The notes under the pieces are model-generated. The model was not told the DNA's origin. It did not search any database and saw only the letters and a program-made list of their open reading frames with translations. DNA of 64,000 nucleotides from NCBI GenBank assembly GCA_037951105.1, contig JBAMJV010007123.1, positions 62,001-126,000 of the forward strand. Direction: 5' to 3'. This document shows, in pieces, positions 1 to 58,651 of the stretch. The first letter of the stretch is position 1. Each line of letters starts with the position of its first letter. A program made the position numbers and the translations under genes. This stretch comes from Echinarachnius parma. Its lineage: Eukaryota; Echinodermata; Echinoidea; Clypeasteroida; Echinarachniidae.

Positions 1-1705
1 TATAATTTTTGCAGATCATATTATGTATGGAGCAATAGATCAATACAAAATAAACAAGGAAGTGAAAAAAGAAAAATACATACATACCCTGCCGGGATTC
101 GAACCTTCACTAAGAGGATCTTCAGACGGACTTGAGTTGCGCCTTGCCATATTTACCGATCGAAATTTGAGGTTGAAATTATATTATTTGAATCATGTAT
201 CCCTCTAGTATGTGTGTATGTGTGTGCGAATTACATTTATCCAGCTATCAATATGTAGATGTAAGATGTAGAGGGCAGTATATTACATGGATGAATCGAT
301 CACTGTTCAAGGTTCCGATTGACAATCGCCTGTTATCGTTACTAATTGTTTTGCACTTGGCAACACGGAGAAATAAATCTTAAAACGAAGAACGTTTTGC
401 GAGCCTTGCCGATTTGTTTATTGCGATTCGCTCCCCGAGCTCTATCATGGCAACGCGCAATTTTCCAAGACGTCACAATAGTCTACAAGACACTTCAAAT
501 GTCTATATCCATACAAAAAAAAAAGTAAAAGTAGCGAGGATGCATAAATCTACTTGTTGTATAATTTTTGCAGATCATATTATGTATGGCGCAATAGATC
601 AATACAAAATAAACAAGGAAGTGAAAAAAGAAAAATACATACATACCCCTGCCGGGATTCGAAACTTCACTAAGAGGATTTTCAGACGGACTTGAGTTGC
701 GCCTTGCCATATTTACCGATCGAAATTTGAGGTTGAAATTATATTATTTGAATCATGTATCCCTCTAGTATGTGTGTATGTGTGTGCGAATTACATTTAT
801 CCAGCTATCAATATGTAGATGTAAGATGTAGAGGGCAGTATATTACATGGATGAATCGATCACTGTTCAAGGTTCCGATTGACAATCGCCTGTTATCGTT
901 ACGAATTGTTTTGCACTTGGCAACACGGAGAAATAAATCTTAAAACGAAGAACGTTTTGCGAGTCTTGCCGATTTGTTTATTGCGATTCGCTCCCCGAGC
1001 TCTATCATGGCAACGCGCAATTTTCCAAGACGTCACAATAGTCTACAAGACACTTCAAATGTCTATATCCATACAAAAAAAAGGTAAAAGTAGCGAGGAT
1101 GCATAAATCTACTTGTTGTATAATTTTTGCAGATCATATTATGTATGGAGCAATAGATCAATACAAAATAAACAAGGAAGTGAAAAAAGAAAAATATATA
1201 CATACCCCTGCCGGGATTCGAACCTTCACTAAGAGGATTTTCAGACGGACTTGCCATATTTACCGATCGAAATTTGAGGTTGAAATTATATTATTTGAAT
1301 CATGTATCCCTCTAGTATGTGTGAGTGTGCGAATTACATTTATCCAGCTATCAATATGTAGATGTAAGATGTAGAGGGCAGTATATTACATGGGTGAATC
1401 GATCACTATTCAAGGTTCCGATTGACAATCGCCTGTTATCGTCACGACTTAGTTTGTACTTGGCAATACGGATAATTAAATCTTTAAACGAAAAACGTTT
1501 TGCGAGCCTAGCCGATTTGTTTATTGCGATTCGCTCCCCAAGCTCTATCATGGGAACGCGCAATTTTCCAAGACGTCGAAATAATTACCAAGACTCACCA
1601 AATGTCTATATCAATAAAAGAAAAATAAATACATGTATTAAACGATATTGAGGCAGAACTGCATGTGGTTGGTAGTCCATAAAATAAAGTTTTTATTCTT
1701 TTTGA
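1..1705 (+). repeat. HOR copy, left-truncated: A / B-head-A-tail hybrid / B
   Basis: The window opens inside an A monomer. The second monomer (about 538-1,083) begins like B (cccctgcc, gattttcag, weakened B box GTTTCGAATCC) and ends like A, with cgttacgaattg and gagtcttgcc. The B module has a 12-bp deletion at about 1,250-1,253 that removes most of the A box (ggacttgccat). The only other instance is near 21,541. Confidence 0.9.
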
Positions 1706-1715
1706 TATATAAAGG
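1706..1715 (+). promoter_or_regulatory. TATA-like TATATAAAGG at each HOR boundary (representative)
   Basis: The string occurs at the start of each C or C* monomer at 33 junctions (5,165, 20,279 and 26,013 read TATATAAAGC). It fits a TATA-box consensus but no downstream open gene follows, so function is unproven. It is used here as the boundary landmark. Confidence 0.3.
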
Positions 1716-2223
1716 AGCAAGGATGCATGAATTTAGTTGTAGTAATGTGTTTGCAGATCATATTATGTAAGGAAGGAATAAATAATACAGATTAAACACG
1801 GAAGAGGAAAAAAAGAAAAATACATACCCTGCAGGGATTCGAACACTTACCAAGAGGATCTCGAGTCTAACCTTAGTTGCGCCTTGCCACTTTTACCGAA
1901 CGAAATTTGAGGTTGAATTTATATTATTTGAATCATGTATCCATCTAGTATGTGTGTGAATAACACATATCCAGCGATCAATATGTAGATGTATGATGTA
2001 GAGGACATTTGAATGAATCGAACACTATTCCACGTTCCGATTGACAATCGCCTATTATCGTCACGGATTGTTTTGCACTTGGCAACACGGAGAAATAAAT
2101 CTTAAAACGAAGATCGTTTTGCGAGCCTTACCGATTTGTTTATTGCGATTCGCTCCCCGAGCTCTATCATAGCAACGCACAATTTTCCAAGACAATAGTC
2201 TACAAGACACTTCAAATGTCTAT
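1706..2223 (+). repeat. Type C monomer, representative
   Basis: C starts at the TATA-like TATATAAAGG (1,706-1,715). It has gtaaggaaggaat in place of gtatggagcaat and a tRNA-like module reading CGA at the anticodon position. It also has a shorter middle (gatgtagaggacatttgaatg) and the clause atagcaacgcaca near its end. This copy carries ctgcaggg instead of ctgctggg, and a 5-bp GTCAC deletion near 2,191; both recur in the copy starting at 21,998. Confidence 0.85.
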
Positions 2224-2345
2224 ATCCATACATAAAAAAGTGAAAGTAGCGAGGATGCATAAATCTAGTTGTTGTATAATTTTTGCAGATCATATTATGT
2301 ATGGAGCAATAGATCAATACAAAATAAACAAGGAAGTGAAAAAAG

Positions 2346-2430
2346 AAAAATACATACATACCCTGCCGGGATTCGAACCTTCACTAAGAGGATCTTCAGA
2401 CGGACTTGAGTTGCGCCTTGCCATATTTAC
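2346..2430 (-). pseudogene. tRNA-like module of type A monomers (GAA at anticodon position)
   Basis: On the minus strand the B box at 2,379-2,369 reads GGTTCGAATCC, a perfect match to the eukaryotic consensus. The A box at 2,423-2,413 reads TGGCAAGGCGC, a weak match. Counting from the A-box T as position 8, positions 32-38 read CTGAAGA: U33 and purine 37 are in place and the triplet is GAA. The gap between boxes is 33 nt, the class I spacing. T5 and T6 runs follow (2,350-2,346 and 2,344-2,339), matching RNA polymerase III terminators. The acceptor stem does not pair and the D loop lacks GG, so this is not a functional tRNA. It is best read as a decayed tRNA or SINE-type head. Transcription is an inference. 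Confidence 0.65.
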
Positions 2431-2589
2431 CGATCGAAATTTGAGGTTGAAATTATATTATTTGAATCATGTATCCCTCTAGAATGTGTGTATGTGTGTG
2501 CGAATTACATTTATCCAGCTATCAATATGTAGATGTAAGATGTAGAGGGCAGTATATTACATGGATGAATCGATCACTGTTCAAGGTTC

Positions 2590-2602
2590 CGATTGACAAT
2601 CG
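2590..2602. promoter_or_regulatory. 13-bp interrupted palindrome, present in A, B and C monomers (representative)
   Basis: CGATTG-A-CAATCG lies in a conserved clause (gttccgattgacaatcgcct) in almost every monomer of all three types and in the inverted edge. Exceptions seen are the cccattgac copies near 4,321, 15,418 and 25,168. It could be a protein-binding site; no binding factor is implied by the sequence itself. Confidence 0.4.
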
Positions 2603-2784
2603 CCTGTTATCGTTACTAATTGTTTTGCACTTGGCAACACGGAGAAATAAATCTTAAAACGAAGAACGTTTTGCGAGCCTTGCCGATTTGTTTATTGCGA
2701 TTCGCTCCCCGAGCTCTATCATGGCAACGCGCAATTTTCCAAGACGTCACAATAGTCTACAAGACACTTCAAATGTCTATATCC

Positions 2785-3432
2785 ATACAAAAAAAAGGTA
2801 AAAGTAGCGAGGATGCATAAATCTACTTGTTGTATAATTTTTGCAGATCATATTATGTATGGAGCAATAGATCAATACAAAATAAACAAGGAAGTGAAAA
2901 AAGAAAAATGTATACATACCCCTGCCGGGATTCGAACCTTCACTAAGAGGATTTTCAGACGGACTTGAGTTGCGCCTTGCCATATTTACCGATCGAAATT
3001 TGAGGTTGAAATTATATTATTTGAATCATGTATCCCTCTAGTATGTGTGAGTGTGCGAATTACATTTATCCAGCTATCAATATGTAGATGTAAGATGTAG
3101 AGGGCAGTATATTACATGGGTGAATCGATCACTATTCAAGGTTCCGATTGACAATCGCCTGTTATCGTCACGACTTAGTTTGTACTTGGCAATACGGATA
3201 ATTAAATCTTTAAACGAAAAACGTTTTGCGAGCCTAGCCGATTTTTTTTATTGCGATTCGCTCCCCAAGCTCTATCATGGGAACGCGCAATTTTCCAAGA
3301 CGTCGAAATAATTACCAAGACTCACCAAATGTCTATATCAATAAAAGAAAAATAAATACATGTATTAAACGATATTGAGGCAGAACTGCATGTGGTTGGT
3401 AGTCCATAAAATAAAGTTTTTATTCTTTTTGA
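2785..3432 (+). repeat. Type B monomer, representative
   Basis: B shares its first half with A almost exactly. It then differs by gtcacgacttag, aatacggataattaaatc and the pair gggaacgcgc/gtcgaaataattacc. It ends with a private spacer of about 70 bp (acatgtattaaacg ... ttttgatat) that A and C lack. This copy has an 8-T run at 3,242-3,249 instead of TTTGTTT, shared only with the copy at 23,534-23,541. Confidence 0.85.
2904..2989 (-). pseudogene. tRNA-like module of type B monomers
   Basis: On the minus strand the B box at 2,938-2,928 is the perfect GGTTCGAATCC and the A box at 2,982-2,972 is TGGCAAGGCGC. The anticodon loop reads CTGAAAA with GAA at 34-36. T5 (2,908-2,904) and T6 (2,902-2,897) follow. 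It differs from the A module by aggattttcag in place of aggatcttcag on the plus strand. Some B and hybrid copies carry GTTTCGAATCC (about 652, 24,955, 33,000 and 33,545), weakening the B box. Confidence 0.6.
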
Positions 3433-5164
3433 TATATAAAGGAGCAAGGATGCATGAATTTAGTTGTAGTAATGTGTTTGCAGATCATATTATGTAAGGA
3501 AGGAATAAATAATACAGATTAAACACGGAAGAGGAAAAAAAGAAAAATACATACCCTGCTGGGATTCGAACACTTACCAAGAGGATCTCGAGTCTAACCT
3601 TAGTTGCGCCTTGCCACTTTTACCGAACGAAATTTGAGGTTGAATTTATATTATTTGAATCATGTATCCATCTAGTATGTGTGTGAATAACACATATCCA
3701 GCGATCAATATGTAGATGTATGATGTAGAGGACATTTGAATGAATCGAACACTATTCCACGTTCCGATTGACAATCGCCTATTATCGTCACGGATTGTTT
3801 TGCACTTGGCAACACGGAGAAATAAATCTTAAAACGAAGATCGTTTTGCGAGCCTTGCCGATTTGTTTATTGCGATTCGCTCCCCGAGCTCTATCATAGC
3901 AACGCACAATTTTCCAAGACGTCACAATAGTCTACAAGACACTTCAAATGTCTATATCCATACATAAAAAAGTGAAAGTAGCGAGGATGCATAAATCTAG
4001 TTGTTGTATAATTTTTGCAGATCATATTATGTATGGAGCAATAGATCAATACAAAATAAACAAGGAAGTGAAAAAAGAAAAATACATACATACCCTGCCG
4101 GGATTCGAACCTTCACTAAGAGGATCTTCAGACGGACTTGAGTTGCGCCTTGCCATATTTACCGATCGAAATTTGAGGTTGAAATTATATTATTTGAATC
4201 ATGTATCCCTCTAGTATGTGTGTATGTGTGTGCGAATTACATTTATCCAGCTATCAATATGTAGATGTAAGATGTAGAGGGCAGTATATTACATGGATGA
4301 ATCGATCACTGTTCAAGGTTCCCATTGACAATCGCCTGTTATCGTTACTAATTGTTTTGCACTTGGCAACACGGAGAAATAAATCTTAAAACGAAGATCG
4401 TTTTGCGAGCCTTGCCGATTTGTTTATTGCGATTCGCTCCCCGAGCTCTATCATGGCAACGCGCAATTTTCTAAGACGTCACAATAGTCTACAAGACACT
4501 TCAAATGTCTATATCCATACAAAAAAAAAGGTAAAAGTAGCGAGGATGCATAAATCTACTTGTTGTATTATTTTTGCAGATCATATTATGTATGGAGCAA
4601 TAGATCAATACAAAATAAACAAGGAAGTGAAAAAAGAAAAATGTATACATACCCCTGCCGGGATTCGAACCTTCACTAAGAGGATTTTCAGACGGACTTG
4701 AGTTGCGCCTTGCCATATTTACCGATCGAAATTTGAGGTTGAAATTATATTATTTGAATCATGTATCCCTCTAGTATGTGTGAGTGTGCGAATTACATTT
4801 ATCCAGCTATCAATATGTAGATGTAAGATGTAGAGGGCAGTATATTACATGGGTGAATCGATCACTATTCAAGGTTCCGATTGACAATCGCCTGTTATCG
4901 TCACGACTTAGTTTGTACTTGGCAATACGGATAATTAAATCTTTAAACGAAAAACGTTTTGCGAGCCTAGCTGATTTGTTTATTGCGATTCGCTCCCCAA
5001 GCTCTATCATGGGAACGCGCAATTTTCCAAGACGTCGAAATAATTACCAAGACTCACCAAATGTCTATATCAATAAAAGAAAAATAAATACATGTATTAA
5101 ACGATATTGAGGCAGAACTGCATGTGGTTGGTAGTCCATAAAATAAAGTTTGTATTCTTTTTGA
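3433..5164 (+). repeat. HOR copy C-A-B, 1,732 bp
   Basis: Markers: C keeps GTCAC; the A palindrome is altered to cccattgac near 4,321; gaagatcg in the A tail; tttctaagacg near 4,468; tgtattattttt near 4,563; cctagctgat near 4,967; agtttgtattc near 5,148. Confidence 0.9.
3543..3623 (-). pseudogene. tRNA-like module of type C monomers (CGA at anticodon position)
   Basis: On the minus strand the A box is at 3,616-3,606 and the B-box-like TGTTCGAATCC at 3,572-3,562. Positions 32-38 read CTCGAGA, a canonical loop with CGA (a serine anticodon). The stem before it reads TTAGA here and TTGGA in variants near 9,950, 14,050 and 55,418, restoring a third stem pair. There is no class II variable arm, so serine identity is doubtful; the TTAGACT stem also resembles tRNA-Phe. 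T5 (3,547-3,543) and T7 (3,541-3,535) follow. Confidence 0.6.
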
Positions 5165-6894
5165 TATATAAAGCAGCAAGGATGCATGAATTTAGTTGTA
5201 GTAATGTGTTTGCAGATCATATTATGTAAGGAAGGAATAAATAATACAGATTAAACACGGAAGAGGAAAACAAGAAAAATACATACCCTGCTGGGATTCG
5301 AACACTTACCAAGAGGATCTCGAGTCTAACCTTAGTTGCGCCTTGCCACTTTTACCGAACGAAATTTGAGGTTGAATTTATATTATTTGAATCATGTATC
5401 CATCTAGTATGTGTGTGAATAACACATATCCAGCGATCAATATGTAGATGTATGATGTAGAGGACATTTGAATGAATCGAACACTATTCCACGTTCCGAT
5501 TGACAATCGCCTATTATCGTCACGGATTGTTTTGCACTTGGCAACACGGAGAAATAAATCTTAAAACGAAGATCGTTTTGCGAGCCTTGCCGATTTGTTT
5601 ATTGCGATTCGCTCCCCGAGCTCTATCATAGCAACGCGCAATTTTCCAAGACGTCACAATAGTCTACAAGACACTTCAAATGTCTATATCCATACATAAA
5701 AAAGTGAAAGTAGCGAGGATGCATAAATCTAGTTGTTGTATAATGTTTGCAGATCATATTATGTATGGAGCAATAGATCAATACAAAATAAACAAGGAAG
5801 TGAAAAAAGAAAATACATACATACCCTGCCGGGATTCGAACCTTCACTAAGAGGATCTTCAGACGGACTTGAGTTGCGCCTTGCCATATTTACCGATCGA
5901 AATTTGAGGTTGAAATTATATTATTTGAATCATGTATCCCTCTAGTATGTGTGTATGTGTGTGCGAATTACATTTATCCAGCTATCAATATGTAGATGTA
6001 AGATGTAGAGGGCAGTATATTACATGGATGAATCGATCACTGTTCAAGGTTCCGATTGACAATCGCCTGTTATCGTTACGAATTGTTTTGCACTTGGCAA
6101 CACGGAGAAATAAATCTTAAAACGAAGAACGTTTTGCGAGTCTTGCCGATTTGTTTATTGCGATTCGCTCCCCGAGCTCTATCATGGCAACGCGCAATTT
6201 TCCAAGACGTCACAATAGTCTACAAGACACTTCAAATGTCTATATCCATACAAAAAAAAGGTAAAAGTAGCGAGGATGCATAAATCTACTTGTTGTATAA
6301 TTTTTGCAGATCATATTATGTATGGAGCAATAGATCAATACAAAATAAACAAGGAAGTGAAAAAAGAAAAATATATACATACCCCTGCCGGGATTCGAAC
6401 CTTCACTAAGAGGATTTTCAGACGGACTTGAGTTGCGCCTTGCCATATTTACCGATCGAAATTTGAGGTTGAAATTATATTATTTGAATCATGTATCCCT
6501 CTAGTATGTGTGAGTGTGCGAATTACATTTATCCAGCTATCAATATGTAGATGTAAGATGTAGAGGGCAGTATATTACATGGGTGAATCGATCACTATTC
6601 AAGGTTCCGATTGACAATCGCCTGTTATCGTCACGACTTAGTTTGTACTTGGCAATACGGATAATTAAATCTTTAAACGAAAAACGTTTTGCGAGCCTAG
6701 CCGATTTGTTTATTGCGATTCGCTCCCCAAGCTCTATCATGGGAACGCGCAATTTTCCAAGACGTCGAAATAATTACCAAGACTCACCAAATGTCTATAT
6801 CAATAAAAGAAAAATAAATACATGTATTAAACGATATTGAGGCAGAACTGCATGTGGTTGGTAGTCCATAAAATAAAGTTTTTATTCTTTTTGA
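5165..6894 (+). repeat. HOR copy C-A-B, 1,730 bp
   Basis: Markers: aaagcagcaagg at the boundary, aaaacaagaaaa, ataatgtttgcag near 5,741, cgttacgaattg near 6,075, gagtcttgcc near 6,137. The same set is in 20,279-21,997 and 26,013-27,742. Confidence 0.9.
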
Positions 6895-8627
6895 TATATA
6901 AAGGAGCAAGGATGCATGAATTTAGTTGTAGTAATGTGTTTGCAGATCATATTATGTAAGGAAGGAATAAATAATACAGATTAAACACGGAAGAGGAAAA
7001 AAAGAAAAATACATACCCTGCTGGGATTCGAACACTTACCAAGAGGATCTCGAGTCTAACCTTAGTTGCGCCTTGCCACTTTTACCGAACGAAATTTGAG
7101 GTTGAATTTATATTATTTGAATCATGTATCCATCTAGTATGTGTGTGAATAACACATATCCAGCGATCAATATGTAGATGTATGATGTAGAGGACATTTG
7201 AATGAATCGAACACTATTCCACGTTCCGATTGACAATCGCCTATTATCGTCACGGATTGTTTTGCACTTGGCAACACGGAGAAATAAATCTTAAAACGAA
7301 GATCGTTTTGCGAGCCTTGCCGATTTGTTTATTGCGATTCGCTCCCCGAGCTCTATCATAGCAACGCACAATTTTCCAAGACGTCACAATAGTCTACAAG
7401 ACACTTCAAATGTCTATATCCATAAATAAAAAAGTGAAAGTAGCGAGGATGCATAAATCTAGTTGTTGTATAATTTTTGCAGATCATATTATGTATGGAG
7501 CAATAGATCAATACAAAAAAAAACAAGGAAGTGAAAAAAGAAAAATACATACATACCCTGCCGGGATTCGAACCTTCACTAAGAGGATCTTCAGACGGAC
7601 TTGAGTTGCGCCTTGCCATATTTACCGATCGAAATTTGAGGTTGAAATTATATTATTTGAATCATGTATCCCTCTAGTATGTGTGCATGTGTGTGCGAAT
7701 TACATTTATCCAGCTATCAATATGTAGATGTAAGATGTAGAGGGCAGTATATTACATGGGTGAATCGATCACTGTTCAAGGTTCCGATTGACAATCGCCT
7801 GTTATCGTTACTAATTGTTTTGCACTTGGCAACACGGAGAAATAAATCTTAAAACGAAGAACGTTTTGCGAGCCTTGCCGATTTGTTTATTGCGATTCGC
7901 TCCCCGAGCTCTATCATGGCAACGCGCAATTTTCCAAGACGTCACAATAGTCTACAAGACACTTCAAATGTCTATATCCATACAAAAAAAAAGGTAAAAG
8001 TAGCGAGGATGCATAAATCTACTTGTTGTATAATTTTTGCAGATCATATTATGTATGGAGCAATAGATCAATACAAAATAAACAAGGAAGTGAAAAAAGA
8101 AAAATGTATACATACCCCTGCCGGGATTCGAACCTTCACTAAGAGGATTTTCAGACGGACTTGAGTTGCGCCTTGCCATATTTACCGATCGAAATTTGAG
8201 GTTGAAATTATATTATTTGAATCATGTATCCCTCTAGTATGTGTGAGTGTGCGAATTACATTTATCCAGCTATCAATATGTAGATGTAAGATGTAGAGGG
8301 CAGTATATTACATGGGTGAATCGATCACTATTCAAGGTTCCGATTGACAATCGCCTGTTATCGTCACGACTTAGTTTGTACTTGGCAATACGGATAATTA
8401 AATCTTTAAACGAAAAACGTTTTGCGAGCCTAGCCGATTTGTTTATTGCGATTCGCTCCCCAAGCTCTATCATGGGAACGCGCAATTTTCCAAGACGTCG
8501 AAATAATTACCAAGACTCACCAAATGTTTATATCAATAAAAGAAAAATAAATACATGTATTAAACGATATTGAGGCAGAACTGCATGTGGTTGGTAGTCC
8601 ATAAAATAAAGTTTTTATTCTTTTTGA
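6895..8627 (+). repeat. HOR copy C-A-B, 1,733 bp (first unit of a 4,096-bp block)
   Basis: Markers: cataaataaaaaag near 7,422, a 9-A run near 7,515, gtgtgcatgtgtg near 7,682, aaatgtttatatc near 8,523. It is duplicated at 10,991-12,723 with the same length. Confidence 0.9.
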
Positions 8628-9798
8628 TATATAAAGGAGCAAGGATGCATGAATTTAGTTGTAGTAATGTGTTTGCAGATCATATTATGTAAGGAAGGAA
8701 TACATAATACAGATTAAACACGGAAGAGGAAAAAAAGAAAAATACATACCCTGCTGGGATTCGAACACTTACCAAGAGGATCTCGAGTCTAACCTTAGTT
8801 GCGCCTTGCCACTTTTACCGAACGAAATTTGAGGTTGAATTTATATTATTTGAATCATGTATCCATCTAGTATGTGTGTGAATAACACATATCCAGCGAT
8901 CAATATGTAGATGTATGATGTAGAGGACATTTGAATGAATCGAACACTATTCCACGTTCCGATTGACAATCGCCTATTATCGTCACGGATTGTTTTGCAC
9001 TTGGCAACACGGAGAAATAAATCTTAAAACGAAGATCGTTTTGCGAGCCTTGCCGATTTGTTTATTGCGATTCGCTCCCCGAGCTCTATCATAGCAACGC
9101 ACAATTTTCCAAGACAATAGTCTACAAGACACTTCAAATGTCTATATCCATACATAAAAAAGTGAAAGTAGCGAGGATGCATAAATCTAGTTGTTGTATA
9201 ATTTTTGCAGATCATATTATGTATGGAGCAATAGATCAATACAAAATAAACAAGGAAGTGAAAAAAGAAAAATACATACATACCCTGCCGGGATTCGAAC
9301 CTTCACTAAGAGGATCTTCAGACGGACTTGAGTTGCGCCTTGCCATATTTACCGATCGAAATTTGAGGTTGAAATTATATTATTTGAATCATGTATCCCT
9401 CTAGTATGTGTGTATGTGTGTGCGAATTACATTTATCCAGCTATCAATATGTAGATGTAAGATGTAGAGGGCAGTATATTACATGGGTGAATCGATCACT
9501 ATTCAAGGTTCCGATTGACAATCGCCTGTTATCGTCACGAATTAGTTTGTACTTGGCAATACGGATAATTAAATCTTTAAACGAAAAACGTTTTGCGAGC
9601 CTAGCTGATTTGTTTATTGCGATTCGCTCCCCAAGCTCTATCATGGGAACGCGCAATTTTCCAAGACGTCGAAATAATTACCAAGACTCACCAAATGTCT
9701 ATATCAATAAAAGAAAAATAAATACATGTATTAAACGATATTGAGGCAGAACTGCATGTGGTTGGTAGTCCATAAAATAAAGTTTTTATTCTTTTTGA
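8628..9798 (+). repeat. HOR copy, dimer C - A/B hybrid, 1,171 bp
   Basis: Markers: ggaatacataatac near 8,697 and the GTCAC deletion near 9,113. The second monomer has an A head and TG tract, then a B tail from about 9,484 with cgaattagtttg. One monomer has been lost. The exchange point lies in a stretch identical in A and B, about 9,421-9,485. Confidence 0.9.
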
Positions 9799-20278: not shown

Positions 20279-21997
20279 TATATAAAGCAGCAAGGATGCA
20301 TGAATTTAGTTGTAGTAATGTGTTTGCAGATCATATTATGTAAGGAAGGAATAAATAATACAGATTAAACACGGAAGAGGAAAACAAGAAAAATACATAC
20401 CCTGCTGGGATTCGAACACTTACCAAGAGGATCTCGAGTCTAACCTTAGTTGCGCCTTGCCACTTTTACCGAACGAAATTTGAGGTTGAATTTATATTAT
20501 TTGAATCATGTATCCATCTAGTATGTGTGTGAATAACACATATCCAGCGATCAATATGTAGATGTATGATGTAGAGGACATTTGAATGAATCGAACACTA
20601 TTCCACGTTCCGATTGACAATCGCCTATTATCGTCACGGATTGTTTTGCACTTGGCAACACGGAGAAATAAATCTTAAAACGAAGATCGTTTTGCGAGCC
20701 TTGCCGATTTGTTTATTGCGATTCGCTCCCCGAGCTCTATCATAGCAACGCGCAATTTTCCAAGACGTCACAATAGTCTACAAGACACTTCAAATGTCTA
20801 TATCCATACATAAAAAAGTGAAAGTAGCGAGGATGCATAAATCTAGTTGTTGTATAATGTTTGCAGATCATATTATGTATGGAGCAATAGATCAATACAA
20901 AATAAACAAGGAAGTGAAAAAAGAAAAATACATACATACCCTGCCGGGATTCGAACCTTCACTAAGAGGATCTTCAGACGGACTTGAGTTGCGCCTTGCC
21001 ATATTTACCGATCGAAATTTGAGGTTGAAATTATATTATTTGAATCATGTATCCCTCTAGTATGTGTGTATGTGTGTGCGAATTACATTTATCCAGCTAT
21101 CAATATGTAGATGTAAGATGTAGAGGGCAGTATATTACATGGATGAATCGATCACTGTTCAAGGTTCCGATTGACAATCGCCTGTTATCGTTACGAATTG
21201 TTTTGCACTTGGCAACACGGAGAAATAAATCTTAAAACGAAGAACGTTTTGCGAGTCTTGCCGATTTGTTTATTGCGATTCGCTCCCCGAGCTCTATCAT
21301 GGCAACGCGCAATTTTCCAAGACGTCACAATAGTCTACAAGACACTTCAAATGTCTATATCCATACAAAAAAAAGGTAAAAGTAGCGAGGATGCATAAAT
21401 CTACTTGTTGTATAATTTTTGCAGATCATATTATGTATGGAGCAATAGATCAATACAAAATAAACAAGGAAGTGAAAAAAGAAAAATATATACATACCCC
21501 TGCCGGGATTCGAACCTTCACTAAGAGGATTTTCAGACGGACTTGCCATATTTACCGATCGAAATTTGAGGTTGAAATTATATTATTTGAATCATGTATC
21601 CCTCTAGTATGTGTGAGTGTGCGAATTACATTTATCCAGCTATCAATATGTAGATGTAAGATGTAGAGGGCAGTATATTACATGGGTGAATCGATCACTA
21701 TTCAAGGTTCCGATTGACAATCGCCTGTTATCGTCACGACTTAGTTTGTACTTGGCAATACGGATAATTAAATCTTTAAACGAAAAACGTTTTGCGAGCC
21801 TAGCCGATTTGTTTATTGCGATTCGCTCCCCAAGCTCTATCATGGGAACGCGCAATTTTCCAAGACGTCGAAATAATTACCAAGACTCACCAAATGTCTA
21901 TATCAATAAAAGAAAAATAAATACATGTATTAAACGATATTGAGGCAGAACTGCATGTGGTTGGTAGTCCATAAAATAAAGTTTTTATTCTTTTTGA
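20279..21997 (+). repeat. HOR copy C-A-B, 1,719 bp
   Basis: The C and A parts match 5,165-6,894. B has the 12-bp A-box deletion near 21,541 shared with the first copy of the window, so this copy is a mosaic. Confidence 0.9.
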
Positions 21998-46177: not shown

Positions 46178-47365
46178 TATATAAAGGAGCAAGGATGCAT
46201 GAATTTAGTTGTAGTAATGTGTTTGCAGATCATATTATGTAAGGAAGGAATAAATAATACAGATTAAACACGGAAGAGGAAAAAAAGAAAAATACATACC
46301 CTGCTGGGATTCGAACACTTACCAAGAGGATCTCGAGTCTAACCTTAGTTGCGCCTTGCCACTTTTACCGAACGAAATTTGAGGTTGAATTTATATTATT
46401 TGAATCATGTATCCATCTAGTATGTGTGTGAATAACACATATCCAGCGATCAATATGTAGATGTATGATGTAGAGGACATTTGAATGAATCGAACACTAT
46501 TCCACGTTCCGATTGACAATCGCCTATTATCGTCACGGATTGTTTTGCACTTGGCAACACGGAGAAATAAATCTTAAAACGAAGATCGTTTTGCGAGCCT
46601 TGCCGATTTGTTTATTGCGATTCGCTCCCCGAGCTCTATCATAGCAACGCACAATTTTCCAAGACGTCACAATAGTCTACAAGACACTTCAAATGTCTAT
46701 ATCCATACATAAAAAAGTGAAAGTAGCGAGGATGCATAAATCTAGTTGTTGTATAATTTTTGCAGATCATATTATGTATGGAGCAATAGATCAATACAAA
46801 ATAAACAAGGAAGTGAAAAAAGAAAAATACATACATACCCTGCCGGGATTCGAACCTTCATTAAGAGGATCTTCAGACGGACTTGAGTTGCGCCTTGCCA
46901 TATTTACCGATCGAAATTTGAGGTTGAAATTATATTATTTGAATCATGTATCCCTCTAGTATGTGTGTATGTGTGTGCGAATTACATTTATCCAGCTATC
47001 AATATGTAGATGTAAGATGTAGAGGGCAGTATATTACATGGATGAATCGATCACTGTTCAAGGTTCCGATTGACAATCGCCTGTTATCGTTACGAATTAG
47101 TTTGTACTTGGCAACACGGATAATTAAATCTTTAAACGAAAAACGTTTTGCGAGCCTAGCCGATTTGTTTATTGGCAAGTTTATTGCGATTCGCTCCCCA
47201 AGCTCTATCATGGGAACCCGCAATTTTCAAAGACGTCGAAAAAATTACCAATACTCACCAAATGACTATATCAAAAAAAGAAAAATAAATACATGTATTA
47301 AACGGTATTGATGCAGAACTGCATGTGGTTTGTAGTCCATAAAATGAAGTTGTTATTCTTTTTAA
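46178..47365 (+). repeat. HOR copy, dimer C - A/B*, 1,188 bp (2,362-bp block 1, unit 1)
   Basis: Same as 43,257-44,444, including cattaagagg and the 12-bp B* insertion. Confidence 0.9.
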
Positions 47366-48539
47366 TATATAAAGGAGCAAGGATGCATGAATTTAGTTGT
47401 AGTAATGTGTTTGCAGATCATATTATGTAAGAAAGGAATAAATAATACAGATTAAACACGGAAGAGGAAAAAAAAAGAAAAATACATACGCTGCTGGGAT
47501 TCGAACGCTTACCAAGAGGATCTCGAGTCCAACATTAGTTGCGCCTTGACACTTTTACCGAACAAAATTTGAGGTTGAATTTATATTATTTGAATCATGT
47601 ATCCATCTAGTATGTGTGTGAATAACACATATCCAGCTATCAATATGTAGATGTATGATGTAGAGGACATTTGAATGAATCGAACACTATTCCACGTTCC
47701 GATTGACAATCGCCTATTATCGTCACGGATTGTTTTGCACTTGGCAACACGGAGAAATAAATCTTAAAACGAAGATCGTTTTGCGAGCCTTGCCGATATG
47801 TTTATTGCGATTCGCTCCCCGAGCTCTATCATAGCAACGCACAATTTTCCAAGACGTCACAATAGTCTACAAGACACTTCAAATGTCTATATCCATACAT
47901 AAAAAAGTGAAAGTAGCGAGGATGCATAAATCTAGTTGTTGTATAATTTTTGCAGATCATATTATGTATGGAGCAATAGATCAATACAAAATAAACAAGG
48001 AAGTGAAAAAAGAAAAATACATACATACCCTGCCGGGATTCGAACCTTCACTAAGAGGATTTTCAGACGGACTTGAGTTGCGCCTTGCCATATTTACCGA
48101 TCGAAATTTGAGGTTGAAATTATATTATTTGAATCATGTATCCCTCTAGTATGTGTGAGTGTGCGAATTACATTTATCCAGCTATCAATATGTAGATGTA
48201 AGATGTAGAGGGCAGTATATTACATGGGTGAATCGATCACTCTTCAAGGTTCCGATTGACAATCGCCTGTTATCGTCACGACTTAGTTTGTACTTGGCAA
48301 TACGGATAATTAAATCTTTAAACGAAAAACGTTTTGCGAGCCTAGCCGATTTGTTTATTGCGATTCGCTCCCCAAGCTCTATCATGGGAACGCGCAATTT
48401 TCCAAGACGTCGAAATAATTACCAAGACTCACCAAATGTCTATATCAATAAAAGAAAAATAAATACATGTATTAAACGATATTGAGGCAGAACTGCATGT
48501 GGTTGGTAGTCCATAAAATAAAGTTTTTATTCTTTTTGA
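47366..48539 (+). repeat. HOR copy, dimer C* - B, 1,174 bp (2,362-bp block 1, unit 2)
   Basis: C* joins a monomer with an A head, the B-type aggattttcag and a B tail. It carries cactcttcaagg near 48,239, seen again only in 49,728-50,901. Confidence 0.9.
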
Positions 48540-49727
48540 TATATAAAGGAGCAAGGATGCATGAATTTAGTTGTAGTAATGTGTTTGCAGATCATATTAT
48601 GTAAGGAAGGAATAAATAATACAGATTAAACACGGAAGAGGAAAAAAAGAAAAATACATACCCTGCTGGGATTCGAACACTTACCAAGAGGATCTCGAGT
48701 CTAACCTTAGTTGCGCCTTGCCACTTTTACCGAACGAAATTTGAGGTTGAATTTATATTATTTGAATCATGTATCCATCTAGTATGTGTGTGAATAACAC
48801 ATATCCAGCGATCAATATGTAGATGTATGATGTAGAGGACATTTGAATGAATCGAACACTATTCCACGTTCCGATTGACAATCGCCTATTATCGTCACGG
48901 ATTGTTTTGCACTTGGCAACACGGAGAAATAAATCTTAAAACGAAGATCGTTTTGCGAGCCTTGCCGATTTGTTTATTGCGATTCGCTCCCCGAGCTCTA
49001 TCATAGCAACGCACAATTTTCCAAGACGTCACAATAGTCTACAAGACACTTCAAATGTCTATATCCATACATAAAAAAGTGAAAGTAGCGAGGATGCATA
49101 AATCTAGTTGTTGTATAATTTTTGCAGATCATATTATGTATGGAGCAATAGATCAATACAAAATAAACAAGGAAGTGAAAAAAGAAAAATACATACATAC
49201 CCTGCCGGGATTCGAACCTTCATTAAGAGGATCTTCAGACGGACTTGAGTTGCGCCTTGCCATATTTACCGATCGAAATTTGAGGTTGAAATTATATTAT
49301 TTGAATCATGTATCCCTCTAGTATGTGTGTATGTGTGTGCGAATTACATTTATCCAGCTATCAATATGTAGATGTAAGATGTAGAGGGCAGTATATTACA
49401 TGGATGAATCGATCACTGTTCAAGGTTCCGATTGACAATCGCCTGTTATCGTTACGAATTAGTTTGTACTTGGCAACACGGATAATTAAATCTTTAAACG
49501 AAAAACGTTTTGCGAGCCTAGCCGATTTGTTTATTGGCAAGTTTATTGCGATTCGCTCCCCAAGCTCTATCATGGGAACCCGCAATTTTCAAAGACGTCG
49601 AAAAAATTACCAATACTCACCAAATGACTATATCAAAAAAAGAAAAATAAATACATGTATTAAACGGTATTGATGCAGAACTGCATGTGGTTTGTAGTCC
49701 ATAAAATGAAGTTGTTATTCTTTTTAA
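48540..49727 (+). repeat. HOR copy, dimer C - A/B*, 1,188 bp (2,362-bp block 2, unit 1)
   Basis: Repeats 46,178-47,365 at offset 2,362. Confidence 0.9.
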
Positions 49728-50901
49728 TATATAAAGGAGCAAGGATGCATGAATTTAGTTGTAGTAATGTGTTTGCAGATCATATTATGTAAGAAAGGAA
49801 TAAATAATACAGATTAAACACGGAAGAGGAAAAAAAAAGAAAAATACATACGCTGCTGGGATTCGAACGCTTACCAAGAGGATCTCGAGTCCAACATTAG
49901 TTGCGCCTTGACACTTTTACCGAACAAAATTTGAGGTTGAATTTATATTATTTGAATCATGTATCCATCTAGTATGTGTGTGAATAACACATATCCAGCT
50001 ATCAATATGTAGATGTATGATGTAGAGGACATTTGAATGAATCGAACACTATTCCACGTTCCGATTGACAATCGCCTATTATCGTCACGGATTGTTTTGC
50101 ACTTGGCAACACGGAGAAATAAATCTTAAAACGAAGATCGTTTTGCGAGCCTTGCCGATATGTTTATTGCGATTCGCTCCCCGAGCTCTATCATAGCAAC
50201 GCACAATTTTCCAAGACGTCACAATAGTCTACAAGACACTTCAAATGTCTATATCCATACATAAAAAAGTGAAAGTAGCGAGGATGCATAAATCTAGTTG
50301 TTGTATAATTTTTGCAGATCATATTATGTATGGAGCAATAGATCAATACAAAATAAACAAGGAAGTGAAAAAAGAAAAATACATACATACCCTGCCGGGA
50401 TTCGAACCTTCACTAAGAGGATTTTCAGACGGACTTGAGTTGCGCCTTGCCATATTTACCGATCGAAATTTGAGGTTGAAATTATATTATTTGAATCATG
50501 TATCCCTCTAGTATGTGTGAGTGTGCGAATTACATTTATCCAGCTATCAATATGTAGATGTAAGATGTAGAGGGCAGTATATTACATGGGTGAATCGATC
50601 ACTCTTCAAGGTTCCGATTGACAATCGCCTGTTATCGTCACGACTTAGTTTGTACTTGGCAATACGGATAATTAAATCTTTAAACGAAAAACGTTTTGCG
50701 AGCCTAGCCGATTTGTTTATTGCGATTCGCTCCCCAAGCTCTATCATGGGAACGCGCAATTTTCCAAGACGTCGAAATAATTACCAAGACTCACCAAATG
50801 TCTATATCAATAAAAGAAAAATAAATACATGTATTAAACGATATTGAGGCAGAACTGCATGTGGTTGGTAGTCCATAAAATAAAGTTTTTATTCTTTTTG
50901 A
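49728..50901 (+). repeat. HOR copy, dimer C* - B, 1,174 bp (2,362-bp block 2, unit 2)
   Basis: Repeats 47,366-48,539 at offset 2,362, with cactcttcaagg. Confidence 0.9.
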
Positions 50902-52632
50902 TATATAAAGGAGCAAGGATGCATGAATTTAGTTGTAGTAATGTGTTTGCAGATCATATTATGTAAGGAAGGAATAAATAATACAAATTAAACACGGAAG
51001 AGGAAAAAAAGAAAAATACATACCCTGCTGGGATTCGAACACTTACCAAGAGGATCTCGAGTCTAACCTTAGTTGCGCCTTGCCACTTTTACCGAACGAA
51101 ATTTGAGGTTGAATTTATATTATTTGAATCATGTATCCATCTAGTATGTGTGTGAATAACACATATCCAGCGATCAATATGTAGATGTATGATGTAGAGG
51201 ACATTTGAATGAATCGAACACTATTCCACGTTCCGATTGACAATCGCCTATTATCGTCACGGATTGTTTTGCACTTGGCAACACGGAGAAATAAATCTTA
51301 AAACGAAGATCGTTTTGCGAGCCTTGCCGATTTGTTTATTGCGATTCGCTCCCCGAGCTCTATCATAGCAACGCACAATTTTCCAAGACGTCACAATAGT
51401 CTACAAGACACTTCAAATGTCTATATCCATACATAAAAAAGTGAAAGTAGCGAGGATGCATAAATCTAGTTGTTGTATAATTTTTGCAGATCATATTATG
51501 TATGGAGCAATAGATCAATACAAAATAAACAAGGAAGTGAAAAAAGAAAAATACATACATACCCTGCCGGGATTCGAACCTTCACTAAGAGGATCTTCAG
51601 ACGGACTTGAGTTGCGCCTTGCCATATTTACCGATCGAAATTTGAGGTTGAAATTATATTATTTGAATCATGTATCCCTCTAGTATGTGTGTATGTGTGT
51701 GCGAATTACATTTATCCAGCTATCAATATGTAGATGTAAGATGTAGAGGGCAGTATATTACATGGATGAATCGATCACTGTTCAAGGTTCCGATTGACAA
51801 TCGCCTGTTATCGTTACTAATTGTTTTGCACTTGGCAACACGGAGAAATAAATCTTAAAACGAAGAACGTTTTGCGAGCCTTGCCGATTTGTTTATTGCG
51901 ATTCGCTCCCCGAGCTCTATCATGGCAACGCGCAATTTTCCAAGACGTCACAATAGTCTACAAGACACTTCAAATGTCTATATCCATACAAAAAAAAGGT
52001 AAAAGTAGCGAGGATGCATAAATCTACTTGTTGTATAATTTTTGCAGATCATATTATGTATGGAGCAATAGATCAATACAAAATAAACAAGGAAGTGAAA
52101 AAAGAAAAATGTATACATACCCCTGCCGGGATTCGAACCTTCACTAAGAGGATTTTCAGACGGACTTGAGTTGCGCCTTGCCATATTTACCGATCGAAAT
52201 TTGAGGTTGAAATTATATTATTTGAATCATGTATCCCTCTAGTATGTGTGAGTGTGCGAATTACATTTATCCAGCTATCAATATGTAGATGTAAGATGTA
52301 GAGGGCAGTATATTACATGGGTGAATCGATCACTATTCAAGGTTCCGATTGACAATCGCCTGTTATCGTCACGACTTAGTTTGTACTTGGCAATACGGAT
52401 AATTAAATCTTTAAACGAAAAACGTTTTGCGAGCCTAGCCGATTTGTTTATTGCGATTCGCTCCCCAAGCTCTATCATGGGAACGCGCAATTTTCCAAGA
52501 CGTCGAAATAATTACCAAGACTCACCAAATGTCTATATCAATAAAAGAAAAATAAATACATGTATTAAACGATATTGAGGCAGAACTGCATGTGGTTGGT
52601 AGTCCATAAAATAAAGTTTTTATTCTTTTTGA
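50902..52632 (+). repeat. HOR copy C-A-B, 1,731 bp
   Basis: Ordinary trimer with private aatacaaattaaac near 50,980. Confidence 0.9.
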
Positions 52633-53820
52633 TATATAAAGGAGCAAGGATGCATGAATTTAGTTGTAGTAATGTGTTTGCAGATCATATTATGTAAGGA
52701 AGGAATAAATAATACAGATTAAACACGGAAGAGGAAAAAAAGAAAAATACATACCCTGCTGGGATTCGAACACTTACCAAGAGGATCTCGAGTCTAACCT
52801 TAGTTGCGCCTTGCCACTTTTACCGAACGAAATTTGAGGTTGAATTTATATTATTTGAATCATGTATCCATCTAGTATGTGTGTGAATAACACATATCCA
52901 GCGATCAATATGTAGATGTATGATGTAGAGGACATTTGAATGAATCGAACACTATTCCACGTTCCGATTGACAATCGCCTATTATCGTCACGGATTGTTT
53001 TGCACTTGGCAACACGGAGAAATAAATCTTAAAACGAAGATCGTTTTGCGAGCCTTGCCGATTTGTTTATTGCGATTCGCTCCCCGAGCTCTATCATAGC
53101 AACGCACAATTTTCCAAGACGTCACAATAGTCTACAAGACACTTCAAATGTCTATATCCATACATAAAAAAGTGAAAGTAGCGAGGATGCATAAATCTAG
53201 TTGTTGTATAATTTTTGCAGATCATATTATGTATGGAGCAATAGATCAATACAAAATAAACAAGGAAGTGAAAAAAGAAAAATACATACATACCCTGCCG
53301 GGATTCGAACCTTCATTAAGAGGATCTTCAGACGGACTTGAGTTGCGCCTTGCCATATTTACCGATCGAAATTTGAGGTTGAAATTATATTATTTGAATC
53401 ATGTATCCCTCTAGTATGTGTGTATGTGTGTGCGAATTACATTTATCCAGCTATCAATATGTAGATGTAAGATGTAGAGGGCAGTATATTACATGGATGA
53501 ATCGATCACTGTTCAAGGTTCCGATTGACAATCGCCTGTTATCGTTACGAATTAGTTTGTACTTGGCAACACGGATAATTAAATCTTTAAACGAAAAACG
53601 TTTTGCGAGCCTAGCCGATTTGTTTATTGGCAAGTTTATTGCGATTCGCTCCCCAAGCTCTATCATGGGAACCCGCAATTTTCAAAGACGTCGAAAAAAT
53701 TACCAATACTCACCAAATGACTATATCAAAAAAAGAAAAATAAATACATGTATTAAACGGTATTGATGCAGAACTGCATGTGGTTGGTAGTCCATACAAT
53801 AAAGTTGTTATTCTTTTTAA
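52633..53820 (+). repeat. HOR copy, dimer C - A/B*, 1,188 bp
   Basis: Matches 43,257-44,444 at offset 9,376. The spacer reads gtccatacaataaag instead of gtccataaaatgaag. Confidence 0.9.
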
Positions 53821-54776
53821 TATATAAAGGAGCAAGGATGCATGAATTTAGTTGTAGTAATGTGTTTGCAGATCATATTATGTAAGAAAGGAATAAATAA
53901 TACAGATTAAACACGGAAGAGGAAAAAAAAAGAAAAATACATACGCTGCTGGGATTCGAACGCTTACCAAGAGGATCTCGAGTCCAACATTAGTTGCGCC
54001 TTGACACTTTTACCGAACAAAATTTGAGGTTGAATTTATATTATTTGAATCATGTATCCATCTAGTATGTGTGTGAATAACACATATCCAGCTATCAATA
54101 TGTAGATGTATGATGTAGAGGACATTTGAATGAATCGAACACTATTCCACGTTCCGATTGACAATCGCCTATTATCGTCACGGATTGTTTTGCACTTGGC
54201 AACACGGAGAAATAAATCTTAAAACGAAGATCGTTTTGCGAGCCTTGCCGATATGTTTATTGCGATTCGCTCCCCGAGCTCTATCATAGCAACGCGCAAT
54301 TTTCCAAGACGTCACAATAGTCTACAAGACACTTCAAATGTCTGTATCCATACATAAAAAAGTGAAAGTAGCGAGGATGCATAAATCTAGTTGTTGTATA
54401 ATTTTTGCAGAACATATTATGTATGGAGCAATAGATCAATACAAAATAAACAAGGAAGTGAAAAAAGAAAAATACATACATACCCTGCCGGGATTCGAAC
54501 CTTCACTAAGAGGATCTTCAGACGGACTTGAGTTGCGCCTTGCCATATTTACCGATCGAAATTTGAGGTTGAAATTATATTATTTGAATCATGTATCCCT
54601 CTAGTATGTGTGTGTGTGTGTGCGAATTACATTTATCCAGCTATCAATATGTAGATGTAAGATGTAGAGGGCAGTATATTACATGGATGAATCGATCACT
54701 GTTCAAGGTTCCGATTGACAATCGCCTGTTATCGTTACGAATTGTTTTGCACTTGGCAACACGGAGAAATAAATCT
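53821..54776 (+). repeat. HOR copy, right-truncated C*-A
   Basis: Matches 44,445-45,400 at offset 9,376. It has a (TG)8 tract at 54,607-54,622 and stops inside the A tail (aaataaatctta) at the orientation switch. Confidence 0.9.
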
Positions 54777-54851
54777 TATGTATGTAAGAGGGACACATAC
54801 TAGAGGGATACATGATTCAAATAATATAATTTCAACCTCAAATTTCGATCG

Positions 54852-54943
54852 GTAAATATGGCAAGGCGCAACTCAAGTCCGTCTGAAGATCCTCTTAGTG
54901 AAGGTTCGAATCCCGGCAGGGTATGTATGTATTTTTCTTTTTT
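54852..54943 (+). pseudogene. tRNA-like module, inverted copy 1
   Basis: A box TGGCAAGGCGC at 54,859-54,869, perfect B box GGTTCGAATCC at 54,903-54,913, T5 at 54,932-54,936 then T6. Type A, with GAA at the anticodon position. It is useful because the sense strand here is the plus strand. Confidence 0.65.
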
Positions 54944-55390
54944 CACTTCCTTGTTTATTTTGTATTGATCTATTGCTCCATACATAATATGATCTGCAAA
55001 AATTATACAACAACTAGATTTATGCATCCTCGCTACTTTCACTTTTTTATGTATGGATATAGACATTTGAAGTGTCTTGTAGACTATTGTGACGTCTTGG
55101 AAAATTGCGCGTTGCCATGATAGAGCTCGGGGAGCGAATCGCAATAAACAAATAGGCAAGGCTCGCAAAACGATCTTCGTTTTAAGATTTATTTCTCCGT
55201 GTTGCCAAGTGCAAAACAATCCGTGACGATAATAGGCGATTGTCAATCGGAACGTGGAATAGTGTTCGATTCATTCAAATGTCCTCTACATCATACATCT
55301 ACATATTGATAGCTGGATATGTGTTATTCACACACATACTAGATGGATACATGATTCAAATAATATAAATTCAACCTCAAATTTCGTTCG

Positions 55391-55476
55391 GTAAAAGTGG
55401 CAAGGCGCAACTAAGGTTGGACTCGAGATCCTCTTGGTAATCGTTCGAATCCCAGCAGGGTATGTATTTTTCTTTT
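55391..55476 (+). pseudogene. tRNA-like module, inverted copy 2
   Basis: A box at 55,398-55,408, B-box-like CGTTCGAATCC at 55,442-55,452, then T-runs from about 55,467. Type C, with the loop CTCGAGA preceded by TTGGA. Confidence 0.6.
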
Positions 55477-56023
55477 TTTCCTCTTCCGTGTTTAATCTGT
55501 ATTATTTATTCCTTTCTTACATAATATGATCTGCAAACACATTACTACAACTAAATTCATGCATCCTTGCTCCTTTATATATCAAAAAGAATAAAAAATT
55601 TATTTTATGGACTATCAACCACATGCAGTTCTGCCTCAATATAGTTTAATACATGTATTTATTTTTCTTTTATTGATATAGACATTTGGTGAGTCTTGGT
55701 AATTATTTCGACGTCTTGGAAAATTGCGCGTTCCCATGATAGAGCTTGGGGAGCGAACCGCAATAAACAAATCGGCTAGGCTCGCAAAACGTTTTTCGTT
55801 TAAAGATTTAATTATCCGTATTGCCAAGTGCAAAATAATTCGTGACGATAATAGGCGATTGTCAATCGGACCGTTGAATAGTGATCGATTCATCCATGTA
55901 ATATACTGCCCTCTACATCTTACATCTAAATATAGATAGCTGGATGAATGTAATTCGCACACACACACATAAAAGAGGGATGCATGATTCAAATAATGTA
56001 ATTTCAACCTCAAATTTCGTTGG

Positions 56024-56114
56024 GTAAATATGGCAAGGCGCAACTCAAGTCCGTCTCGAGATTTTCTTAGTGAAGGTTCGAATCCGACAGGGTATGTATG
56101 TATTTTTCTTTTTT
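56024..56114 (+). pseudogene. tRNA-like module, outermost inverted copy
   Basis: A box at 56,031-56,041, perfect B box at 56,075-56,085, T-runs from about 56,102. The flanks are A-like (aactcaagtccgtc) but the loop is CTCGAGA, so CGA sits in an A-type body. This suggests CGA is the older state. Confidence 0.6.
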
Positions 56115-56548
56115 CTCTTCCTTGTTTATTTTGTATTTATCTATTGCTCCATATATAAAATGATCTGCAAAAATATTACAACAACTAGCTTTGTGCATCC
56201 TCGCTACTTTATACATAATAGGAATCAAACTTTATTTTATGGACCACCATCCAAATGGAGTTTTGCATCATATCGTTGAATACATTTATTCATTATTTTT
56301 GTATGGATATAGACATTTGAAGTGTTTTGGTGACTAGTGCGACGTCTTGGAAAATTGCGCGTTGCCATGATAGAGCCCGGGGAGCGAAACGCAATAAACA
56401 AATCGGCAAGGCTCGCAAAACGTTCTTCGTTTTAAGATTTATTTCTCCGTGTTGCCAAGTGCAAAACAATTCGTGACGATAATAGGCGATTGTCAATCGG
56501 AACGTGGAATAGTGTTCGATTCATTCAAATGTCATCTACATCATACAC

Positions 56549-57242: not shown

Positions 57243-57628
57243 TTAAAGGGATCTAGTAACTTTGTTGACATGTGCAAAAAGTAATGAATGGTTGATGCAA
57301 TGTATATTGTTGTTATCTCATTTGTCCACAGGGTATTGTGTGAAAATTTCAAGCCAAATGGACATTTTATGGCCAAGTAATGAACGAAAATGCAAAGTGA
57401 TATTCAGTAACTCACTGCACTCACTTTGTACACGGAAGAAAAACTCGCCCGGAGTTTTTCTTATCTGAATACTTCAATCATACATATCTTTGTAACGAAA
57501 GGGAAATTTGAAAAACCGAAACCTGTCCCGTGATTTTATTGTTAATACAAATACAACAAGGTATAAGGGAACCGCTAGAATTAAAATTTTATTTTGAGGA
57601 CTTGGACAATGTTACTAAGTCCCTTTAA
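57243..57628. mobile_element. MITE-like element with 27-bp terminal inverted repeats
   Basis: The left end ccttaaagggatctagtaac (57,241) and the reverse complement of the right end (ccttaaagggacttagtaac, from 57,630) match over about 23 of 27 bases. TTAA sits at both ends (57,243-57,246 and 57,625-57,628), consistent with a TTAA or TA target duplication. The flanks gcacgcc and ggtgcac join to give a site like the neighbouring ccttatagggtgcac. The interior (378 bp) has no coding potential, so any transposase must come from elsewhere. Superfamily is not resolved. Confidence 0.65.
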
Positions 57629-57644
57629 GGTGCACATGTGCACC
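57629..57644. repeat. Perfect 16-bp palindrome
   Basis: GGTGCACATGTGCACC abuts the right end of the MITE-like element. Confidence 0.85.
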
Positions 57645-58650: not shown

Positions 58651-58651
58651 T

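Follow-up and report, generated by a model that had tools for sequence, protein, structure and literature searches.

What is a tRNA-like module doing in each monomer of a long satellite array? The question is raised by a 64,000-nt stretch of the genome of the echinoid Echinarachnius parma (positions 62,001–126,000 of contig C7114, hereafter the window), which belongs to an assembly of 1.2 Gb and 14,790 contigs. The single COX1 match of that assembly agrees with an echinoderm host: it has no stop codons under the echinoderm/flatworm mitochondrial code (table 9), with AAA once as Asn where other animals have Asn, and the neighbouring frames look by eye like ND4L and COX2, which gives the order COX1–ND4L–COX2, an echinoderm arrangement. 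Monomers of the satellite in the window bear an A-box-like element, a B box and a run of T, arranged like the internal promoter and terminator of a gene transcribed by RNA polymerase III (Pol III). On balance, we favour the reading that a tRNA-derived B box with its terminator was caught in the satellite and amplified by recombination, that it perhaps still binds transcription factor IIIC (TFIIIC), and that it probably gives rise to no discrete RNA.

Boxes, spacing and T-run in the array

A preliminary description of the window had put the number of modules at about 98, with one on the minus strand of every monomer. Scanning both strands of the whole window for B boxes with at most two mismatches returns 99, and 98 of them lie inside the satellite array, which bears out the number. 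The strand holds for 95 modules, but the last three are on the plus strand, past an inversion. The layout of the array and of its first module, together with the two modules that depart from the common spacing, is as follows:

1–54778, minus strand (modules): main satellite array of 539-bp (A), 560-bp (B) and 633/651-bp (C) monomers, continuing beyond the left end of the window
54779–54798, no strand: inversion junction from minus- to plus-oriented monomers; the final minus piece ends at 54778 and the first plus monomer begins at 54799
54799–56548, plus strand: inverted end of the array with three plus-strand modules, then the array edge
139–149, minus strand: A-like 11-mer TGGCAAGGCGC of the first module, matching 4 of 6 fixed positions of TRGYNNANNNG
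95–105, minus strand: perfect B box GGTTCGAATCC of the first module, 33 nt past the A-like 11-mer
72–76, minus strand: T5 run of the first module at the position of a Pol III-type terminator, 18 nt past the B box
1214–1224, minus strand: B box of a module that has lost 12 nt between the boxes, so that 21 nt separate them and the A-like 11-mer is cut
21506–21516, minus strand: second B box with a cut A-like 11-mer and a gap of 21 nt, known through counts only

Three main monomer types, with labels of our own, are present in the window: A (539 bp, n = 32), B (560 bp, n = 28) and C (633 bp, n = 28, with four more of 651 bp). A further type, C1720, is found on contigs C1720 and C6142 and is mostly about 740 bp long, with some monomers of 618 bp; 17 copies were used. 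We refer to these four types together as the 560-type satellite. The main monomer clusters diverge by 15–17%, and the edges of the arrays fall at varied monomer positions. The alignment comprises 92 whole monomers from the 98 window modules (at most 3 mismatches, next module 350–900 bp away, 60 nt upstream present) and 18 monomers from loci L053 and L054, with one 455-nt monomer excluded from the type consensuses.

The B box is the firmest part of the module. It reads as a perfect GGTTCGAATCC in 60 of the 98 modules, and all 98 are within two mismatches of GGTTCRANNCC. The earlier statement that it is perfect in types A and B is right for A (32/32) and only mostly so for B (24/28); the three main types were compared in 88 monomers of the window, and none of the 28 C-type copies has the perfect box, 25 of them reading TGTTCGAATCC. 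A run of at least four T follows within 45 nt in every one of the 98 modules, as had been described, usually as T5 beginning 14–20 nt beyond the box.

The upstream element is less convincing as an A box. An 11-mer like TGGCAAGGCGC (at most 2 mismatches) stands exactly 33 nt before the B box in 96 of 98 modules, so that both the element and the 33-nt gap are real features of the array, but it agrees with TRGYNNANNNG at 4 of 6 fixed positions in all three window types and at 5 of 6 in the C1720 type. A better match (5/6) sits 42 nt before the B box, and 30 copies of the 11-mer with one mismatch occur on the plus strand. In the two modules with the 12-nt deletion (B boxes at 1,224 and 21,516), TGGCAAGTCCG remains 21 nt before the B box. 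These two monomers do not prove the A box dispensable, because by our own count the remnant still fits 5 of 6 A-box positions. The distance from A-like box to B box, start to start, is 44 nt, which by our own reckoning from tRNA numbering would presumably correspond to tRNA positions 8 to 52, with a short variable loop and no insertions in the D loop.

A second pair of boxes was noticed on the other strand (TGGCAACACGG, 56 nt, GATTCGCTCCC; 88 pairs). It was judged to be a chance occurrence, as a conserved A is missing from the B-like box.

tRNA likeness and conservation of the module

The array modules are copies of one ancestral module and are not independent; any test of chance concerns one sequence only, because the copies are homologous. 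It is conceivable that one near-palindromic GGTTCGAATCC arose fortuitously in an AT-rich monomer and was spread by amplification, since all the copies would then go back to a single event. The companions of the B box are indeed common in the monomer: about 7% of module-strand positions in the window types score as well as the A-like 11-mer, and T4 is present in about 30% of 45-nt windows. However, when one B-type consensus monomer is dinucleotide-shuffled 3,000 times, only 3 of the shuffles contain a perfect B box and 44 a 9-of-10 box, and the full module (perfect B box, upstream A-like element with at least 4/6 matches, downstream T4) appears in none. The signal beyond chance is carried by the B box, not by the weak A-like box. 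The C1720 and C types are, moreover, similar in register to a module of another satellite, called K and described below, over the half from anticodon loop to T-run. The failure of Rfam to match a tRNA and the number of cloverleaf pairs, given next, would suit a chance resemblance, but with the shuffles and the relation to K on the other side we regard it as quite improbable.

What is left of a tRNA is limited. ARAGORN finds no tRNA in the array modules, nor in the arrays L053–L055; among five tRNA-Leu-like loci that served as a control, it called genes in L030, L031 and L043 and none in L029 or in the intron-bearing L049. The preliminary description had suggested a covariance search with tRNA models. 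Rfam reports no tRNA at the gathering level, nor on three stretches for which E was relaxed to 10. When the window types are laid out under tRNA numbering, 1–3 of 7 acceptor pairs, 1 of 4 D-arm pairs, 1–2 of 5 anticodon pairs and 2 of 5 T-arm pairs can form, and the T arm of the C1720-type consensus keeps 4 of 5. Total cloverleaf pairs are 5–8 of 21, as against a median of 8 when that register is placed at other positions of the monomers. The module has no cloverleaf or acceptor stem and a degenerate A box and D arm; it is not a tRNA gene.

Descent from a tRNA-Leu was considered from the likeness of TGGC...AAGGCGC to a D arm minus its loop and of CTCAAG to an anticodon loop. This idea was given up, since no gaps are needed to fit the module to a tRNA whose variable loop is short, and since its best measured relative is module K.

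Could each monomer nevertheless be an active Pol III unit, yielding a small RNA of about 90–100 nt that ends at the T-run? The tRNA-like spacing, the B box and the T-run, the last in 98 of 98 modules, are what such a unit needs, and PolIII/TAN, a tRNA-like tandem repeat of a newt, can be transcribed in vitro according to PMC10702118. This much of the earlier Pol III reading stands. The modules do not look like live Pol III genes, however, as no tRNA is found in them, the cloverleaf is missing and the A box is degenerate. The predicted RNAs also fold poorly: of two from the window, one is less stable than 198 of its 200 shuffles (z = +2.07) and the other less stable than all 200 (z = +2.49), and one from the C1720 type is about equal to its shuffles (z = +0.46). 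Active units of this kind are, in our view, unlikely. The B box and T-run would allow TFIIIC to bind, and productive Pol III transcription of the 560-type satellite is doubtful.

Conservation gives a similar answer for this satellite. Across the four type consensuses, counted with the 4 window monomers of 651 bp excluded, identity is 10/11 in the A-like box, 10/11 in the B box, 13/15 in the next 15 nt, 19/33 in the gap, 51/60 in the 60 nt upstream and 276/376 in the rest. The boxes are matched in conservation by 133 of 529 11-nt windows and by 78 of 514 26-nt windows, and the longest invariant blocks (23, 22, 17 and 15 nt) all lie outside the module. Within types, variable sites are no rarer in the boxes than in random windows, which also speaks against active units. 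Because so many windows score equally, the longest invariant blocks are elsewhere and variable sites within types are not fewer, the module is not specially conserved in the 560-type satellite. An excess conservation of the boxes over other segments, which the preliminary description had named as part of its test, is missing here, and this speaks against a selected Pol III function in this satellite. The two longest invariant blocks across 560-type monomers (23 and 22 nt) read GAGCGAATCGCAATAAACAAATC and GGATACATGATTCAAATAATAT.

A second satellite superfamily and dispersed copies

Beside a relic of the 560-type satellite, contig C8568 has a repeat whose unit, about 740 bp long, contains three modules that are tRNA-like, named K, L and M3. 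K lies on the plus strand and L on the minus strand, divergent from K and, by eye, about 50 bp away. In related arrays the unit measures about 405–466 bp and contains K and L (C4770), or about 275 bp and contains K as its one module (C11716). K looks tRNA-Lys-like to us, and this name is tentative for K as for M3: the Rfam tRNA match of K is sub-threshold (18.5 bits and E 0.31, below the gathering score of 29), and when seven loci, K included, were scanned against Rfam with E allowed up to 1, no tRNA was listed. At least four T follow within 45 nt in 38 of 39 K modules with a B box matching GG[TA]TCGAG[CT]CC (10/10, 16/17 and 12/12 in three arrays). With up to 3 mismatches allowed, a 29-nt pattern across the B box of K matches the genome 2,040 times, and the reversed pattern, used as a control, never; the 100 matches listed, all exact, are on C1759, C2542, C3174, C4770, C8568 and C11292. 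The arrays of this superfamily and those of a third satellite, with units of about 223 bp, are:

K superfamily: L055 1–2651, L061, L066 and L067 (C8568, C11716, C4770); also on C1759, C2542, C3174 and C11292
223-bp satellite: L056 14–3835; L059 1123–3815; L062 1280–1502 (on C8568 near 2378)

Is the module of K related to that of the window? A BLAST comparison of the 560-type consensuses with K and 223-bp units, about 3.7 kb in all, ranks first a match between the C1720-type module and K (E 0.003), on the same strand and in register from anticodon loop to T-run. The next one (E 0.016) joins a T-rich stretch downstream of the B-type module to a K unit. In a shuffle test of alignment to K, which covered types A, C and C1720, scores as good were reached by 0 of 500 shuffles for the C1720 type and by 2 of 500 for the C type; for the same three types against L and M3, 58 to 461 of 500 shuffles did as well. 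Because both the best BLAST match and the shuffle results single out the module, it is the module that makes up the clear similarity between the 560-type and K satellites, which on the sequences compared are otherwise largely unrelated.

The satellites are also physical neighbours. The 223-bp satellite, in which a B-box scan of the examined pieces finds no module, directly abuts the 560-type (C7114, C1720) and the K type (C8568), and units of the K type and the 560-type adjoin each other on C8568 and C1720, the junctions in L062 and L063 being one and the same. The three satellites thus appear to share a compartment. The observed/expected ratio of CpG is 1.22 in the window array (1–54778) against 0.57 in its right flank (56549–64000), and it is 1.04 (mostly K satellite) and 1.01 in two stretches of L055. 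Within a 560-type module, L055 contains an insertion of about 2.6 kb (3468–6049), which by our own reading resembles a Harbinger-type DNA transposon in its inverted terminal repeats and its TTA duplication.

Dispersed SINE (short interspersed nuclear element) copies of the module, which the preliminary description had suggested looking for outside the array, were sought with two patterns. The A-like box, CTCAAG and B box in combination match the genome 186 times; among the 100 matches listed, 96 are in arrays on C1720, C6142 and C7114, and four are intron-bearing tRNA-Leu-like genes (C843, C5082). The second pattern, a 23-mer that runs on from the B box, matches 312 times at up to 3 mismatches (control 0), and the 100 listed, all exact, are without exception on the array contigs C1720, C6142 and C7114. 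No dispersed family with this module is thus found among the matches listed for either pattern. Since densities in the examined arrays extrapolate, as a rough reckoning, to about 320 copies in arrays, close to the 312 matches, a dispersed SINE family that carries this module seems unlikely.

The genome has other tRNA-like elements outside these arrays. On C1701 (13785–38206) there is a cluster of tRNA-Leu-like genes, spaced about every 200 bp at 13.8–21.9 kb, and clusters also occur on C125, C5910 and C7189. One element lies in the right flank of the window, along with other repeats:

57721–57774, minus strand: tRNA-like element beyond the edge of the array; its A box TAGCCTATTGG fits the full consensus, and it has a B box GGTTCGAATTC (57,731) and a T7 run 16 nt beyond
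58904–60345: nested tandem repeat with periods of 154, 452 and 268 bp; the units start TGGCCTGTA and contain TACAGGC
60715–61554, minus strand: 280-aa open frame that contains an RNase H domain (PF00075, E 5.8e-14) and may be the terminal part of a non-LTR (long terminal repeat) retrotransposon
61608–63998, plus strand: reverse-transcriptase remnant in two frames split by a stop, which looks Penelope-like to us; the second frame scores 29.0 bits against RVT_1, just below the Pfam cut-off of 29.6, and the first has no match

Several observations weigh against the reading that the module is a worn tRNA fragment carried along passively. The A type shows no significant similarity to K (421 of 500 shuffles score as well), and Rfam finds no tRNA in it; for this type, which with the B type makes up most window modules, the case for tRNA descent is therefore made by the B box, by the spacing and by the homology that ties it to the C and C1720 types. 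The 212 matches of the 23-mer beyond those listed could hold a few dispersed copies. The boxes, at 10/11 each, might be read by some as constrained in comparison with the rest of the 560-type monomer. A further point comes from the K superfamily. In an alignment of five K arrays (19, 13, 21, 1 and 2 sequences; 56 matches kept after removal of short and edge ones), the 28-nt block from B box to T-run is identical at 23 positions and is the best-conserved stretch; only 10 of 283 windows equal it, every one overlapping the block. The kept block argues that such modules can matter.

This block is the best hint of a role, which may be one for the cell (extra-TFIIIC sites, clustering) or one for the repeat itself. 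It would fit the proposal that the arrays are TFIIIC sites under selection, in which TFIIIC is recruited by the B boxes, whether Pol III takes part or not, and clusters loci, stops heterochromatin from spreading or aids condensin, to the advantage of satellites that contain such boxes. On this side stand the K units of C11716, the shortest at about 275 bp, which retain K despite the loss of more than half of the 740-bp unit, and the fact that satellites with and without modules abut. However, the B box of K alone is unexceptional (9/11 identical, equalled by 42 of 300 windows), and in the C11716 consensus it carries one substitution (GGATCGAGCCC). Two of the five arrays contribute just 1 and 2 sequences, and in the 560-type satellite the boxes are no better kept than many blocks, the longest invariant ones being elsewhere. 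Excess conservation can therefore be claimed for the B-to-T block of K but not for its B box or for the 560-type boxes, and we consider selected TFIIIC-site arrays rather unlikely.

Origin of the module and comparison with known systems

We therefore return to the reading of a captured and amplified tRNA piece. Each monomer would bear the worn 3′ half of a tRNA-derived element, either a tRNA pseudogene or the head of a SINE, consisting of an anticodon-loop-like stretch, the B box and a T-run at the distance of a tRNA terminator. This piece would have been part of the sequence that turned into the monomer, and would then have been multiplied by unequal recombination within the array; such recombination is suggested by the homogenised types, the inversions and the array edges at varied monomer positions. 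The 5′ half of the promoter (A box, D arm) has probably decayed, and the modules would for this reason most likely be at most TFIIIC-binding B boxes that produce no discrete stable small RNA, and in the 560-type satellite largely passengers. The tRNA descent, the TFIIIC binding and the absence of productive Pol III transcription are what we infer from the features of the module.

Satellites with tRNA-like segments are already known in other animals. PMC10702118 describes three amphibian families of tRNA-like tandem repeats: PolIII/TAN (Hirt) of the newt Cynops pyrrhogaster, OAX/satellite I of Xenopus, and Rana/pol III. According to the same text, none of the three has a confirmed parent SINE, and a link of the amphibian repeats to SINEs is disputed. 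The window satellite resembles them in its long head-to-tail array with one tRNA-like segment per unit. It differs in its host and in the length of its units (about 360 nt in PolIII/TAN and about 250 nt in Rana/pol III; PMC10702118). It also differs in that its A box is poor and that a second satellite of the same genome carries tRNA-like modules as well.

In squamate SINE-derived satellites (sSats; PMC10702118), the tandem unit likewise takes in the portion of a tRNA-type head where box B lies, as in a 67-nt snake unit. However, they have identified parent SINE families, whereas none is seen dispersed here with the patterns used, and the units here, at 539–740 bp, are far longer. Among invertebrates, PcH-sat of the limpet Patella caerulea is a satellite tied to a tRNA-type SINE, the Nin-SINE, but its 179-bp unit is without boxes A and B according to its authors (PMC11121367), whereas B box and T-run are kept here.

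Repeats with Pol III-type promoters are also found in Cassandra, which forms tandem arrays (PMC7215508), and in the Helenus terminal-repeat retrotransposons in miniature (TRIMs), whose LTRs are tRNA-like (PMC10886601). Unlike in these, by eye there is no LTR here; LTR, primer-binding site and polypurine tract are not established. PMC10886601 names six animal phyla with Helenus, and echinoderms are not among them. An origin from a Helenus-like TRIM was accordingly set aside, given the lack of LTR structure by eye and the varied array edges; since those edges fall at varied monomer positions, the ends of an element are not definable.

A literature search for phrases such as 'tRNA-derived satellite' and 'tRNA-like satellite' returned no paper, and in an echinoderm search 'satellite DNA' is nowhere mentioned among the 12 of 20 matches listed; in both cases subscription papers were largely outside the search.

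Since tRNA-bearing satellites are already known from amphibians and reptiles, the window satellite adds to the kind, and the unusual part is the pair of satellites that share a module. Going further, a tRNA-derived B box with its terminator might in this genome be both a recurrent seed and a retained core of otherwise unrelated satellites (560-type, K), with TFIIIC or Pol III activity driving their tandem amplification or upkeep, and Pol III modules would then be what satellites form around; we put this forward tentatively, as an idea with rather little probability. That two adjoining satellites are clearly similar only in their module, and that one of them keeps the stretch from B box to terminator best, makes a role of Pol III or TFIIIC in the rise or persistence of satellites testable. 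The pair also hints that tRNA pieces can seed such repeats.

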